Origin: Cryobacterium sp. PH31-AA6
GTDB taxonomy: Bacteria; Actinomycetota; Actinomycetes; Actinomycetales; Microbacteriaceae
Direction: 5' to 3'
Assembly: GCF_030063195.1 (NCBI RefSeq)
Contig: NZ_JASISS010000006.1
Coordinates: forward strand, 85,757 to 149,756
Length of the DNA: 64,000 nt
The translations under genes and the position numbers were made by a program. The notes under the pieces are model-generated. The model did not search any database and was not told where the DNA came from. It saw nothing but the letters and a program-made list of their open reading frames with translations. Positions 202-58,304 of the stretch are shown piece after piece. Each line of letters opens with the position of its first letter. Position 1 is the stretch's first letter.

Positions 202-1093
202 ACCCCGCGGTCGGCCTGACCCGGGTCGCGCGCCAGCGGTGCTCGTCGCGGCGCACGAGCTCCAGGATGCCGCCCTGAACCCGCGGCCAGTCCCTGATGA
301 TCATGCGATAGGTGATCCGCACCACGAGGTAGCCCTGCTGCACGAGCTCGAAGTCTCGGCGACGATCCTCCTCGAAGGCCAGCCCGGTGTGGAACTCCTC
401 GCCGTCGAGCTCGAGCACGAGCCGGTCGCCGACCAGCAGATCGACCCGGCCCACCCCGGGCACCCTCACCTGGCAGCGCACCCTGATCCGCTGCCGAACC
501 AGGAACAAGCGCACCAGTGTCTCCAACCCGGACTGGCTCCGGCCGTCGCAGAGCGCCAGTGCCGCGCGGCGATGCGGAACCGTGGCGGCGACCAGGTCGC
601 CCAGCTGGTGCGGTGCCAGTTCGCCCAGGTTGAGCGCGGAGTCCACGGCAATCACGGCAGCATCGCCCCGGTCGCAGGCGAACATCTCGGCCAGGGCACG
701 CAGTAGGGGGTCCCGGGCCTCGCCGGCGCCGGGCGCCCGGCTGTAGTGCACGCAGACGCCGTGCCGCGCCGGGTCGAGCCTGGTCGCCCGGTCCTCCGGC
801 GACGCCAGCCGGCTCGCCGTGGGTGCCACACGCACGTGCAGCAAGGGGTCGGCCAGCAGCCACAGTCCGTGCAGACGGGCGACGGATGCCCCCGTGAGGC
901 TCCCGCCGACCCGCACCGCCCGTGCGACGTCACTCGGGGTTCCCGGCACCGCGAACCAGCCATTCCGCACCCGCCAGATGCTTCCGGAGCGGAGCGCGCA
1001 CAGGGTCTGGGCGCGAGTGACCCCCGCCGAGGCCAACTGCCGGTAGTTCGCGACGCCGCCGCGCCGGGTGATCGCTGCCGCAGCATCCGTCAT
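200..1093 (-). CDS. DUF559/Vsr-like endonuclease-domain protein with N-terminal AbiEi-type winged helix
   Basis: A protein of 297 residues. The N-terminal 50 residues (ITRRGGVANYRQLASAGVT, then a Trp-Arg-Val-rich strand) look like the AbiEi-type antitoxin winged helix. The C-terminal 110 residues look like the DUF559/Vsr fold of PD-(D/E)XK nucleases: a Glu in SGLETLVR, an Asp in GRVDLLV and the ELDGEEFH strand. No toxin partner is adjacent, so a toxin-antitoxin role is not supported. ATG at 1093 is chosen; GTG at 1099 is possible. The open frame continues upstream to 1609 but that part reads through palindromes and tandem repeats and looks non-coding. Function is unknown. A second protein of the same architecture lies at 48439-49356. 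Confidence 0.8.
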   Translation of the reverse strand: MTDAAAAITRRGGVANYRQLASAGVTRAQTLCALRSGSIWRVRNGWFAVPGTPSDVARAVRVGGSLTGASVARLHGLWLLADPLLHVRVAPTASRLASPEDRATRLDPARHGVCVHYSRAPGAGEARDPLLRALAEMFACDRGDAAVIAVDSALNLGELAPHQLGDLVAATVPHRRAALALCDGRSQSGLETLVRLFLVRQRIRVRCQVRVPGVGRVDLLVGDRLVLELDGEEFHTGLAFEEDRRRDFELVQQGYLVVRITYRMIIRDWPRVQGGILELVRRDEHRWRATRVRPTAG

Positions 1094-22989: not shown

Positions 22990-23050
22990 CGCGAAAGTGC
23001 ACTTTCCGCCCTTCTCGCGGTGCCGAAGGGGCGAAAAGTGCACTTTCGCG
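22990..23050. repeat. Palindromic repeat, CGCGAAAGTGCAC family, copy 1
   Basis: Near-perfect inverted arms (CGCGAAAGTGCACTTTC at 22990-23006; complement ending 23050) with a short loop. It starts directly after the menC stop and lies before the end of the convergent ccsB gene, so it could terminate both. Confidence 0.85.
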
Positions 23051-29173: not shown

Positions 29174-29183
29174 GCGGCGGGTC

Positions 29184-29275
29184 GGGTCTCGACAGGCTCG
29201 GGTCTCGACAGGGTCGACCACCGCGGGTCCCGGCCACCGGTGGTCGAGCTCGTCGAGACCGAGCCCGAGTCGCGG
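29184..29275. repeat. Palindromic repeat, GGTCTCGAC family
   Basis: GGTCTCGACAGGGTCGACCACCG (29201-29223; shown here by its first and last bases only as a motif) pairs with an arm at 29237-29260. An extra GGGTCTCGACAGGCTC copy sits before the left arm. Elements of this GTCTCGACNNGCTCGACCAC type are dispersed in Microbacteriaceae genomes. It lies between convergent aspS and the Dabb gene. Confidence 0.75.
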
Positions 29276-33789: not shown

Positions 33790-33838
33790 GCCCGCCCCGC
33801 CGCCTCGCCACAATGGCGGCTCCCGCCAGCGTTGAGTG

Positions 33839-33883
33839 GCGGACAAAACACCTTCCGGGGCTTGGCGGAGGTGCTTTGTCCGC
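33839..33883. terminator. Long bidirectional hairpin between ktrA and proC
   Basis: GCGGACAAAACACCT (33839-33853) pairs with AGGTGCTTTGTCCGC (33869-33883), with one G-U type mismatch, around a 15-base loop. It lies between convergent genes. The arm sequence looks like a dispersed repeat rather than a unique terminator. Confidence 0.75.
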
Positions 33884-33912
33884 GACTCACCGGACCGACG
33901 GCGCGGGAGGTG

Positions 33913-45989: not shown

Positions 45990-48299
45990 GTGACCGCTGT
46001 TTCCACTTCATCCTCCCGCGGCGTCGCCGACACCGTGACCAACGCGATCGCGACCCCCGACAAAGAGCAGCCGTTCGACGCGCTCGGCCTGACTCCGGGC
46101 GAGTACGCGGAGATCCGCACCATCCTGGGCCGCCGCCCCACCTCGGGCGAGCTGGCGATGTACTCGGTGATGTGGAGCGAGCACTGCTCCTACAAGAGCT
46201 CGAAGAAGTACCTGCGCCAGTTCGGCGACAAGGTCTCCCCCGCCATGAAGAAGAACCTGATGGTGGGCATGGGCGAGAACGCCGGCGTGCTCGACGTCGG
46301 CGAGGGCTGGGCGGTCACGTTCAAGATCGAGTCGCACAACCACCCCTCCTACATCGAGCCGTTCCAGGGCGCCGCGACCGGCGTCGGCGGCATCGTGCGC
46401 GACATCATCTCGATGGGAGCCCGCCCGGTCGCCGTGATGGACGCCCTCCGCTTCGGTGACATCGACGATCCGGACACCGCCCGCGTCGTGCACGGCGTCG
46501 TCTCCGGCATCTCCTTCTACGGCAACTGCCTCGGCCTGCCCAACATCGGCGGCGAAACCTGGTTCGACAAGGTCTACCAGGGCAACCCGCTCGTCAACGC
46601 CCTCTCGGTGGGCGTGCTGCGGCACGAGGACCTGCACCTGGCCAACGCCACCGGCGCGGGCAACAAGGTCGTGCTCTTCGGGGCGCGCACCGGCGGCGAC
46701 GGCATCGGCGGGGCATCCATTCTCGCGTCGGACACCTTCAGCGAGGGCGGCCCGACCAAGCGCCCCGCCGTGCAGGTGGGCGACCCGTTCGCCGAAAAGG
46801 TGCTGATCGAGTGCTGCCTCGAGCTGTACCGCGACAAGCTCGTCGAAGGCATCCAGGACCTCGGCGCGGCCGGCATCTCCTGCGCGACCAGCGAGCTGGC
46901 CTCCAACGGCGACGGCGGCATGTTCATCGAGCTCGACAAGGTGCTGCTGCGGGACCCCTCCCTCACGGCCGAGGAGATCCTCATGTCGGAGAGCCAGGAG
47001 CGGATGATGGCCGTCGTCACTCCCGAGAAGCTCGCCGGGTTCCTCGCCGTGACCAAGAAGTGGGACGTGGAGACCAGCGTGCTCGGCGAGGTCACCGACT
47101 CCGGCCGGCTGATCATCGACTGGCACGGCGAAGAGATCGTCAACGTGGACCCGCGCACCGTCGCGGTCGACGGCCCGGTCTACGACCGCCCCGTGGCCTA
47201 CCCGGCCTGGCTCGACGCGCTGCAGGCTGACACGGCATCCGCCCTGCCCCGCCCGACCTCGCCCGAGGTGCTGCGCGAGCAGTTCCTGGCCTTGCTCGGC
47301 TCGCCGAACCTCGCCGACCCGAGCTGGATCACCGACCAGTACGACCGCTACGTGATGGGCAACACCGCCCTCTCGTTCCCCGACGACGCCGGGATGATCC
47401 GGATCGACGAGGAATCAGGGCTCGGCTTCGTGATCGCGACCGACGCGAACGGGCGCTACTGCCAGCTCGACCCCTACCGCGGCGCGCAGCTCGCCCTCGC
47501 CGAGGCGTACCGCAACGTGGCCGCCACCGGCGCGGTGCCGGTGGGCATCAGCGACTGCCTCAACTTCGGTTCGCCGGAGAATCCCGAGGTGATGTGGCAG
47601 TTCGAACGCGCCGTGACAGCGCTGGCCGATGGTTGCCTCGAGCTGGAGATCCCGGTCACCGGCGGCAACGTCTCGTTCTATAACCAGACCGGCGACCAGC
47701 CGATCCACCCGACCCCGGTCGTGGCCGTGCTCGGCGTGATCGATGACGTCGCCCGCCGCGTGCCCAGCGGCTGGCAGGACGACGGCCACAACATCTACCT
47801 GCTCGGCATCACCCGCGAGGAGCTCGACGGCTCCGCCTGGGCCGGAGTCATCCACGACCACCTCGGCGGCGTGCCGCCGCTGGTCGACCTGGCCGGGGAG
47901 GCCACCCTCGCCGGGCTGCTGCACGCGGCATCGGTGGAGGCGCTGATCGACAGCGCCCACGACCTCAGCACTGGCGGGCTGGCGCAGACGCTCGCCGAGG
48001 CCGTGCTCCGGTTCGGGGTCGGTGCCCGGGTGTGGCTCGGCGACATCTGCGAGCGCGACGGGGTGGACGCATCCGTCGCCCTGTTCTCGGAGTCGGCCGG
48101 CCGCGTGGTCGTCTCGGTGCCGCGCGAGGACGACGTGAAGTTCCTCGGCCTGTGCGAGGGGCGGGGCTACCCCGTGCTGCGCATCGGCGTGACGGATGCC
48201 ACCGCGCCCGTGCTCGAGATTCAGGACTACTTCACGGTGTCTCTGGAAGACCTGCAGTCCCGCCACCGCAGCACCCTCCCCTCCCGCTTCGCCCACTAG
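45990..48299 (+). CDS. purL: Phosphoribosylformylglycinamidine synthase subunit PurL
   Basis: The 769-residue protein is the small (bacillus-type) PurL that works with PurS and PurQ. It converts FGAR to FGAM with ATP and glutamine-derived ammonia in purine synthesis. Visible signatures are [13 protein letters not shown] (His ligand region), [20 protein letters not shown], and [17 protein letters not shown]; the second half repeats the AIRS fold ([17 protein letters not shown]). purQ and purS are outside the window. A palindromic repeat begins 14 bases after the stop. Confidence 0.96.
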
Positions 48300-48312
48300 C
48301 CCGGGCAGGTAG

Positions 48313-48373
48313 CGCGAGAGTGCACTTTTCGCCCCCTCCGCTCGGCTGTGGGGGCGAAAAGTGCACTCTCGCG
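48313..48373. repeat. Palindromic repeat, CGCGAAAGTGCAC family, copy 2 (compensatory variant)
   Basis: The left arm starts CGCGAGAGTGCAC and the right arm ends GTGCACTCTCGCG. Other copies have GAAAGTGCAC and GTGCACTTTC. Both arms changed at the matching position, so pairing is kept. It lies between purL and the endonuclease gene. Confidence 0.9.
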
Positions 48374-48438
48374 GCCGGGGTGTGGCGAGGGTGTGGAGAA
48401 GATCAGCGCGGATCGGGCAGGTCCGGCATTATTCGGGG

Positions 48439-49356
48439 ATGAAACGGGCCCGGAAACTCCCGATCGCGCTGCGCGGGCGTGCGTTCAGCACGCGAGAAGG
48501 ATCCGCCGGGGGCGTGACGGCGAAGCGGATGCGTGGCGCCGACCTCGAACGGCCGTTCGTGGGCATCCGGGTGCCGCGCGGCAGTGACCTGCCGGACCCA
48601 TGGGTCGTCGACGTCTACAGCCGGCGGATGTCTGCCGACGACTTCTTCAGCCACGCGTCGGCCGCGCAGATCCACGGTCTGCCATTGCCGAGTTGGCTCG
48701 AGCGCGCACGAACGGTGCACGTCAGCACGGAAAGCCAGGAGCACCGGGACCGGGTGCGCGGCGTGGTCGGTCATCACGTGCGGAGGGACAGCATCCGTAC
48801 CGTCGTCGTGCGCGGCCTGAGGGTCACGACGCCGGTGGACACCTGGTGTCAGTTGTCGACCATGTTGGCGGTCGACGACCTCATCAAGATCGGGGACGCG
48901 CTGGTACGGCGGAAGAAGCCGTTTGCGACCATGCTCGAGTTACGGGTGGGAGTCGCGCGCTACGCGGGACGGCGCGGCGCGCGAAAGCTGCGTGAGGCCC
49001 TCGCCGCGGTGCGGCCCGGCGTCGATTCGCCGAAGGAGACCGAGCTGCGGCTGCTCCTGGTGCGGGCCCGCCTGCCCGAGCCGGAGGTGAACGGGGAAAT
49101 CGTCGATCGAGCCGGCGTGAAGATCGCGACGGGCGACCTCGTCTATCGGGAGTATCGCGTTCTGGTCGAGTACGACGGGGAGCAGCACCGGAGCGACGAG
49201 GATCAGTACCACCTGGATGTCGACCGGCTCGACGCCGTCATGGAGTCGGGTTGGCGAGTGATTCGCATCAACAAGTCGCATCTCCGGTCCCGGCCCGCGT
49301 CGGTCATCCGCAGGGTCGAGACGGCCCTGCGCGCCCGCGGCTGGCGCTCCACCTGA
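48439..49356 (+). CDS. DUF559/Vsr-like endonuclease-domain protein, second copy
   Basis: The 305-residue protein has the same architecture as the one at 200-1093: a middle region (FSHASAAQIHGLPLP, then a conserved RGLRVTTPVDTWCQL) and a C-terminal nuclease-like domain with Glu in SPKETELRLLL, Asp in ATGDLVY and VEYDGEQHRSDE, then SGWRVIRIN. The E-D-ExD pattern is what a PD-(D/E)XK nuclease needs, so the protein may be active. The AbiEi-type winged helix at the N-terminus is less clear than in the first copy. It stands alone, with a palindrome on each side (48313-48373 and 49400-49460). No methylase or partner is adjacent. Function unknown. Confidence 0.8.
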   Translation: MKRARKLPIALRGRAFSTREGSAGGVTAKRMRGADLERPFVGIRVPRGSDLPDPWVVDVYSRRMSADDFFSHASAAQIHGLPLPSWLERARTVHVSTESQEHRDRVRGVVGHHVRRDSIRTVVVRGLRVTTPVDTWCQLSTMLAVDDLIKIGDALVRRKKPFATMLELRVGVARYAGRRGARKLREALAAVRPGVDSPKETELRLLLVRARLPEPEVNGEIVDRAGVKIATGDLVYREYRVLVEYDGEQHRSDEDQYHLDVDRLDAVMESGWRVIRINKSHLRSRPASVIRRVETALRARGWRST

Positions 49357-49399
49357 GCCCGCAGCATCCGCTCGCCCCGTCCAGAGCAACGTCACGTCA

Positions 49400-49460
49400 C
49401 GCGAAAGTGCAGTTTTGGCCCCTTCAGGGCCCGTGAGGGGGCGAAAAGTGCACTTTCGCG
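49400..49460. repeat. Palindromic repeat, CGCGAAAGTGCAC family, copy 3
   Basis: The right arm (49437-49460) is a perfect family member; the left arm carries two substitutions. The stop codon of the SDR gene (49424-49426) lies inside the loop, so half of the repeat is coding on the minus strand. Confidence 0.88.
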
Positions 49461-50392
49461 GGGAGGGAGAAGGGGGTCTTGGTGAGGGATTCGGAGCGGG
49501 ACCAGAGCGCGGCGGCCACCGCCTCGTCGAGCGAGGTGCGGGTGGGGGTTTGGAGGGTCGGGGCTCCCCGGGTGAGGAAGCGCGGGCCGTAGTACTGGCC
49601 GCCCGCGGCATCCGGGTCGGCGGCGGCGCGCACGATCGGCCACGCGCCGCGGTCCTTGCCCTGCGCCATCATGCCCTGCAGGTTGTCGACGAAGCGCGCG
49701 CCGCGGCCTGGTTCACTGACCCCGCGGATGCCGGGCGTCAGCCCCGAAATCGAGTAGCCCGGGTGCGCGACCAGCGAGGTGATCCCGTCAGGGCCGTCGG
49801 CGCCCGCGGCCCGCAGCCTGCGGTCGAGCTCGAACCCGAACACCTGCAGTGCGATCTTCGACTGCGCGTACGCGGTCCACTTCTTGTAGTTCTTCTCGAG
49901 CTGAAGGTCGTCCAGGGTCGAGTCGATGATGCGCGAGATCATGGAGCCGAGGGAGACAACCCGGCTGCCCGGGGTGCGCTGCAGAGCCGGCAGCAGCAGG
50001 GCGGTCAGGGCGAAGTGGCCGAGGTAGTTGGTGGCGAGCACGAGCTCGTCGCCGTCGACGCTGAGTTCCCGGGTGCGCGGCGGGTGCACGATCCCGGCGT
50101 TGAGAATCAGCCCATGAACGGCGGGGAGCTCGAGCAGGATCTCCGCGGCCCGGCGCACGGATGCGAGGTCGGCCACGTCCAGCGGCACGGTCGACACGGC
50201 GGCCCCCGGCACTCGTCCGCGGATCGCGCCGGCGGCCGTCTCGGCCCTGGCCGGGTTGCGGCAGGCGAGCACGACGTGGGCGCCGGCATCCGCCAGTTGC
50301 TCGGCGGTGAAATAGCCCAGCCCCGTGTTGGCGCCCGTGATCACGAAGGTCTTGCCGGCCTGGCCGGGGAGGATCCGCGGGTTCCAGGTCAT
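49424..50392 (-). CDS. Short-chain dehydrogenase/reductase
   Basis: The 322-residue SDR has the NAD(P) motif TGANTGLGYFTA, NAG in LILNAGIV, the catalytic Ser after SLGSMIS and Y-A-Q-S-K in TAYAQSKIALQ. Its likely substrates are small alcohols or ketones; it is closest to the oxidoreductase/retinol-dehydrogenase-like group. ATG 50392 overlaps the chorismate mutase stop (ATGA). The last dozen codons (SLPAKVHFSPPHGP) are encoded by a palindromic repeat, so the C-terminal tail is probably a recent addition. Confidence 0.9.
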   Translation of the reverse strand: MTWNPRILPGQAGKTFVITGANTGLGYFTAEQLADAGAHVVLACRNPARAETAAGAIRGRVPGAAVSTVPLDVADLASVRRAAEILLELPAVHGLILNAGIVHPPRTRELSVDGDELVLATNYLGHFALTALLLPALQRTPGSRVVSLGSMISRIIDSTLDDLQLEKNYKKWTAYAQSKIALQVFGFELDRRLRAAGADGPDGITSLVAHPGYSISGLTPGIRGVSEPGRGARFVDNLQGMMAQGKDRGAWPIVRAAADPDAAGGQYYGPRFLTRGAPTLQTPTRTSLDEAVAAALWSRSESLTKTPFSLPAKVHFSPPHGP

Positions 50393-58243: not shown

Positions 58244-58304
58244 CGCGAAAGTGCACTTTTCGCCCCCTCACGCTTCGTGTAGGGGCGAAAAGTGCACTTT
58301 CGCG
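58244..58304. repeat. Palindromic repeat, CGCGAAAGTGCAC family, copy 4
   Basis: Perfect family arms start at 58244 and end at 58304. The element lies seven bases after the stop of the baeRF2-like gene and before the promoter of the YhgE operon. Confidence 0.9.

Follow-up and report, generated by a model that had tools for sequence, protein, structure and literature searches.

A DUF559 nuclease gene paired with a dispersed palindrome family in Cryobacterium sp. PH31-AA6, a possible counterpart of REP/RAYT systems

To our knowledge, the Y1 transposase RAYT (REP-associated tyrosine transposase) is the only enzyme dedicated to dispersed palindromes in bacteria, and our searches showed no other. 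Its association with repetitive extragenic palindromic (REP) elements is described in the available text of Nunvar 2010 (PMC2817692), and PMC3733652 describes a short REP unit of 20-40 bp, one end of which carries GTAG or CGTC. Here we describe a nuclease-type gene that, like the REP/RAYT gene, has on either side a copy of an intergenic palindrome found at scattered sites, in the genome of Cryobacterium sp. PH31-AA6 (3.68 Mb in 63 contigs). The DNA analysed, referred to as the window, is a stretch of 64,000 nucleotides (C60:85757-149756), in which a DUF559 nuclease gene lies at 48439-49356 with a 61-bp palindrome on either side. Genes of this type are associated with flanking palindromes and co-vary with them, and sequence comparison makes it likely that the protein recognises and cuts the 61-bp palindrome beside its gene, the repair of these breaks copying and homogenising the family. 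That a dispersed palindrome can have its own dedicated gene is already known; the enzyme class is new for this role as far as our searches show. No report of a DUF559-palindrome pairing was found in the literature covered, subscription papers and most preprints lying outside that coverage. Judged by title and start of abstract, papers naming DUF559 are not about palindromes, and those that also contain the word "palindromic" are unrelated; the available text of a Cryobacterium genome paper (PMC7381226) mentions palindromes only within the CRISPR name. The features on which the analysis is centred are as follows.

48439 to 49356, plus strand: DUF559 nuclease gene (ATG at 48439, stop at 49356, 305 aa; Pfam DUF559 match)
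48445 to 49014, plus strand: AbiEi-like half of the protein, residues 3-192, predicted to bind DNA (predicted structure)
49021 to 49344, plus strand: nuclease half, residues 195-302 (predicted structure)
48313 to 48373, no strand: upstream 61-bp palindrome, ending 65 bp before the start codon (two arms; single-strand fold)
49400 to 49460, no strand: downstream 61-bp palindrome, starting 43 bp past the stop codon (two arms; single-strand fold)
22990 to 23050, no strand: dispersed 61-bp palindrome, between convergent genes
58244 to 58304, no strand: dispersed 61-bp palindrome, between two minus-strand genes

A sequence-only reading of this window had placed the gene between two palindromes and listed two more copies at 22990 and 58244; all four are there, each exactly 61 bp long. 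The 13-mer that it quoted for them is less literal, since it differs at one position both from CGCGAGAGTGCAC, found in the copy before the gene, and from CGCGAAAGTGCAG, the left arm of the copy after it. The gene had also been called solitary, a term that needs qualifying: two paralogues with 39-40% identity to the 305-aa protein lie on contigs C9 and C11, and further DUF559 matches on C12 and at C60:86013. The latter corresponds to window positions 257-430 on the minus strand, inside a 481-codon open frame, with no dedicated flanking palindrome.

With two mismatches allowed, the 13-mer has eight matches in the window against 2.71 expected, and since eight were reached in 2 of 100 shuffles the short motif alone is modest evidence against chance. 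All eight matches pair up as full palindromes, and when a strict two-armed pattern is required the genome has 17 places, a reversed control pattern giving none. In 29 other genomes, of which 18 belong to the genus, the strict pattern is absent. In total, the genome harbors 23 two-armed copies, one of which is short of four bases at a contig start, as well as three single arms at contig ends, two of them maybe halves of one copy. The 22 untruncated copies are all exactly 61 bp long (60-62 permitted in the search), and four of 24 copies lie on the contig of the gene (0.98 expected, P 0.015). As single DNA strands, the four window copies fold at -26.0 to -34.8 kcal/mol (z -7.1 to -12.9), with conserved arms and a variable loop middle; a search against known RNA families gave only four microRNA models, far under curated cut-offs. 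Unlike REP elements, the family measures 61 bp with CGCGA at both ends, instead of 20-40 bp with GTAG or CGTC. Moreover, each palindrome is a single near-symmetric hairpin, so that nothing corresponds to the inverted orientation in which REPs flank their gene, and its copies are few compared with the more than 100 usual in REP/RAYT systems.

The enzyme also differs. The 305-aa protein scores 26.0 bits against Pfam DUF559 (PF04480; cut-off 20.6), a cut-off under which the more distant relatives L123 and L107 stay. A confident structure model predicts an AbiEi-like half joined to a Vsr/homing-endonuclease-like half, the fold assignment resting on VIA-align 2. The modelled nuclease half has the fold of Vsr and of I-Bth0305I, an EDxHD-type homing endonuclease, and shows the fold of an EDxHD homing-endonuclease catalytic domain; its nuclease residues are conserved. 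RAYT is a Y1 HUH transposase whereas this protein is predicted to have the DUF559 Vsr/homing-endonuclease fold, and because the enzyme is not that of REP/RAYT the system is not filed as RAYT. Compared with I-Bth0305I and the Vsr mismatch endonuclease, the nuclease is here apparently fused to an AbiEi-like half and paired with palindromes, and there is no methyltransferase gene among its direct neighbours, identified by Pfam as purL and a short-chain dehydrogenase gene. In type IV toxin-antitoxin systems the AbiEi antitoxin goes with a gene for the nucleotidyltransferase toxin AbiEii; no such gene lies directly beside 48439-49356, both places being taken by the two neighbours just named. NCBIfam gave no family for four of five proteins and one chance match for the fifth, and a sequence search of solved structures with the alignment gave no match. 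Caulobacter VsrA shares the DUF559 nuclease domain; in the available text of PMC12907096 an SOS response depends on VsrA, as proposed through breaks, and VsrA is tied to a solitary cytosine methyltransferase, with no palindromes mentioned in that text.

The association with palindromes extends to the relatives of the gene. A protein search matched 27 of 30 genomes, own genome counted. The named loci are the best 80 of 274 and come from Cryobacterium, Agromyces, Herbiconiux, Agreia, Microbacterium and others; the closest named relative among these 80 is a protein of Cryobacterium algoritolerans, 85% identical. A set of 124 distinct genes was obtained after proteins shorter than 250 aa, those interrupted by a stop and those sharing an identical core had been dropped, and the frame-broken genes L106, L132 and L149 were removed before protein work. 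For the 515 control genes, a length of at least 600 bp, a place away from contig ends and a distance of more than 2.5 kb from any known DUF559-type gene were required. Hairpin thresholds, score 11 for a flanking and 14 for a strong palindrome, were chosen by us. A palindrome within about 350 bp (score at least 11) accompanies 94 of the 124 DUF559-type genes against 88 of the 515 controls (Fisher P 2e-35), a strong one (score at least 14) 79 against 69 (P 2e-28), and palindromes stand on both sides of 50 against 4 (P 3e-35), P values that call for caution, since six contigs supplied all the controls and the cases, often related to one another, were drawn from many genomes. The enrichment anticipated by the sequence-only reading is thus found, and its alternative of chance flanking is excluded. 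Among the best 80 of 274 loci, 50 have a strong palindrome within 250 bp, where palindrome density is 21 times that of the remaining flanks, and seven of nine loci representing other families of the order, one locus per family (L087-L095), have a strong palindrome within about 350 bp of the match. In the class as a whole, DUF559 occurs in 81 of 118 genomes drawn, and matching palindromes on both sides were judged present in two (L367 and L379) of the 30 best-scoring loci, some of which are cut by contig ends and which include other DUF559 architectures.

As in REP/RAYT systems, gene and palindrome co-vary. Many relatives' genes are flanked by palindromes of other sequences than the 61-bp family, and each gene tends to have its own, in line with a test that the sequence-only reading had put forward: the upstream and downstream palindromes of one gene have a median identity of 0.80 against 0.415 between different genes, and for 40 of 50 genes no palindrome in the comparison resembles the upstream copy more closely than the gene's own downstream copy does. 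Palindrome identity climbs with protein identity (Spearman 0.27, P 0.003, N 85), a co-variation to which shared descent contributes and from which it is not separated. The part of the protein tracking the palindrome best shows no clear difference (0.27 for the N-terminal 192 residues, 0.21 for the first 48, 0.24 for the nuclease). One genome can hold several nuclease-palindrome pairs, as in G006, where four genes from the protein search (L120, L121, L122 and L123) are each flanked on both sides, by four different types. The C11 paralogue of PH31-AA6 has weak palindromes on both sides (score 8), similar by eye to a second palindrome type of the window:

33833 to 33889, no strand: 57-bp palindrome (TGAGTGGCGGACAAAACACCTTC...), likely that of the C11 paralogue (likeness by eye)

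Because of this resemblance, the window may carry copies of two nuclease-palindrome pairs. Another hairpin type, with GGTCTCGACAGG...CGAGACC inverted repeats, was observed at 29178-29267 and, by eye, in two more genomes of the genus, at L411 (G004) and L417 (G017).

Again as in REP/RAYT systems, the gene stays in place while its flanking palindromes change, a purL counterpart preceding it in five of six compared species whose palindromes there differ, and in 10 of 10 pairs among the five locus-sharing species its conservation is below that of the median shared gene. The palindromes are mostly 55-75 bp long, with 12-30 copies per genome counted. In G005, a complete genome with a main contig of 4.2 Mb, there are 30 pairs, all with the same arm spacing, and 10 of 28 non-flanking copies lie within 100 kb of the gene against 1.3 expected (P 3e-7; P at most 0.008 at each of six radii tried; overall distance test P 4e-4). 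In G007, arms repeat at about 73-bp spacing near 3053200, 3132700, 3383900 and 3673150 of C1, like tandem REP arrays. In two cases palindrome pairs enclose one or two genes, named by eye as nitrate-transporter-like and as an alcohol-dehydrogenase/nitroreductase pair; as these contents share no common cargo, the idea of integron-like cassettes was rejected.

The species compared have different dominant palindrome families, and at least four of six contigs (G003, G005, G015 and G018) hold, by eye, copies of another species' type, those of the G005 type in G003 being worn. Corresponding gaps can carry different palindromes in different species, and similarity among the palindromes of shared gaps (0.64, n=8) is lower than that of the best within-genome copies (0.80, n=16). 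Other sites are plainly empty in relatives, with gaps of 21-28, 3 or -4 bp and no palindrome. Palindromes are therefore gained or lost across species, and likely replaced in place.

Two genomes are of special interest. C. algoritolerans (genome G030, locus L193) shares the 61-bp family, with at least 29 copies in the stretches compared, and the two-armed sites of PH31-AA6 have a counterpart there in 20 of 23 cases, one other being decayed, one absent and one ambiguous. Its nuclease gene (L193, 4001-4909) contains an in-frame stop at codon 197. G016 is the sole genome of 19 from the genus without a match to the protein, and it has one palindrome of the right size and strength in 400 kb, evenly sampled, against six in 160 kb at arbitrary places of four gene-bearing genomes (P 0.003), a comparison that is only suggestive of a gene-palindrome tie because several of the six are another repeat type. 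With the threshold lowered to score 11, G016 has 15 in 400 kb and the gene-bearing genomes 16 in 160 kb; flanks more than 1.5 kb from DUF559-type genes in 18 genomes, a sample biased towards the gene, hold 18 palindromes in 403 kb. A strain with many palindromes and no nuclease had been named beforehand as evidence against the pairing; G016, the one same-genus genome without a match, is not such a strain, although the sample for comparison is small and of mixed types.

The most likely mechanism behind these observations is the following. The AbiEi-like half would read the cognate palindrome, and the Vsr/homing-like half would cut it, probably when extruded as a hairpin or cruciform because each strand of a near-perfect 61-bp palindrome can form a hairpin. 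When another copy serves for repair, the cut or old palindrome would be overwritten and new sites would now and then be seeded, sometimes near the gene, and drift in the specificity of the protein would make the palindrome family turn over with it. Insertions just behind genes would presumably do little harm, and at such places a hairpin might even be of use to transcript ends; the persistence of sites despite the turnover of their sequence would then be understandable. More tentatively than for the action of the protein on its own palindrome, we consider that this may be a second, independent REP-type system, in which a homing-endonuclease-like enzyme with an AbiEi-like reader would spread its own palindromes by within-genome cut-and-copy conversion, overwriting older ones in place and switching sequence as the reader evolves, with several pairs per actinobacterial genome.

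The strongest competing explanation, in our view still unlikely, is that the palindromes are host elements at transcript ends, such as terminators or stabilisers of RNA 3' ends, and that DUF559 genes settle in such gaps. Across six contigs, hairpins of this size occupy 26 of 125 gaps between convergent genes, 28 of 455 tandem gaps and 2 of 121 divergent ones, their median distance to the closest stop codon being about 15 bp, and a palindrome in one species predicts one in the corresponding gap of another (8/25 against 6/166, pooled P 5e-5; gaps at the DUF559 gene left out and species pairs not independent), an effect seen in tandem gaps (3/13 against 3/136, P 0.009) with nothing in divergent ones. 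The terminator alternative of the sequence-only reading keeps some probability, since copies sit just past stop codons, but no intrinsic terminator was found at 48200-49600. Such host elements would also leave unexplained why 50 DUF559-type genes and only four controls have palindromes on both sides, why congeneric species differ in palindrome sequence, why that sequence follows the gene, and why G016, which lacks the gene, is so poor in them. Less probable still is a selfish homing gene landing at existing palindromes, the gene moving itself and the palindromes spreading otherwise. The match of the nuclease half to a homing endonuclease and the position of the gene inside a palindrome pair, like an inserted cassette, are in its favor, whereas the place of the gene after purL, kept in five of six species with differing palindromes, argues that the gene moves rarely, and no Y1 transposase was found that could spread the palindromes, other mobilisers not having been searched for.

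AbiEi autoregulates, and the AbiEi-like half could accordingly belong to a DNA-binding regulator with the upstream palindrome as operator and the dispersed copies as regulon or decoys. Some support comes from the 60 strong upstream palindromes, 53 of which end 48-125 bp before the start codon (some loci duplicated), but palindromes occur downstream (76 of 138 loci) about as often as upstream (82), divergent gaps seldom hold a dispersed copy and the nuclease residues are conserved, which makes a purely regulatory role quite improbable. Finally, ordinary REPs moved by a RAYT encoded elsewhere in the genome would fit the general likeness to REPs, but Y1_Tnp (PF01797) was detected in none of 19 same-genus genomes by a search that was positive in five of 14 controls, including E. 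coli; this explanation was rejected, and retains a negligible chance should a highly diverged Y1 enzyme have been missed.

Binding, cutting and copying are inferred, and several observations weigh against a nuclease that cuts and copies its own palindromes. At the threshold used, 30 of the 124 genes are without a flanking palindrome, and of the five DUF559-type genes of PH31-AA6 only 48439-49356 passes the thresholds, with nothing that looks dedicated at the C9 paralogue (22 bp from a contig end), on C12 or at C60:86013. In the class-wide sample, a palindrome of at least 44 bp was found in 9 of 30 loci, sometimes far from the gene. Shared ancestry alone gives some co-variation, the corresponding-gap signal is driven by tandem gaps (convergent 5/11 against 2/9, P 0.27), and clustering of copies near the gene is not evident in G007. 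C. algoritolerans retains its palindromes with an interrupted gene, stem mismatches averaging 2.0 there against 1.2 in PH31-AA6, which is a trend (P 0.19). No target-site duplications were seen between PH31-AA6 and C. algoritolerans, among five species or among three close species, one of them partial, junctions being too diverged. In addition, Foldseek on the model gave nothing at E 0.001 or below, mitochondrial-ribosome proteins ranking top by E-value.

If the proposed role is correct, a palindrome-plus-nuclease pairing would have arisen more than once, here via an enzyme unrelated to RAYT, and a function would be provided for part of DUF559, a large family of unknown function. The quite different hairpins found at the same gene ends in species that are otherwise close would be accounted for as well, and dozens of naturally diverged enzyme-palindrome pairs would become available for learning how a reader domain picks its DNA.
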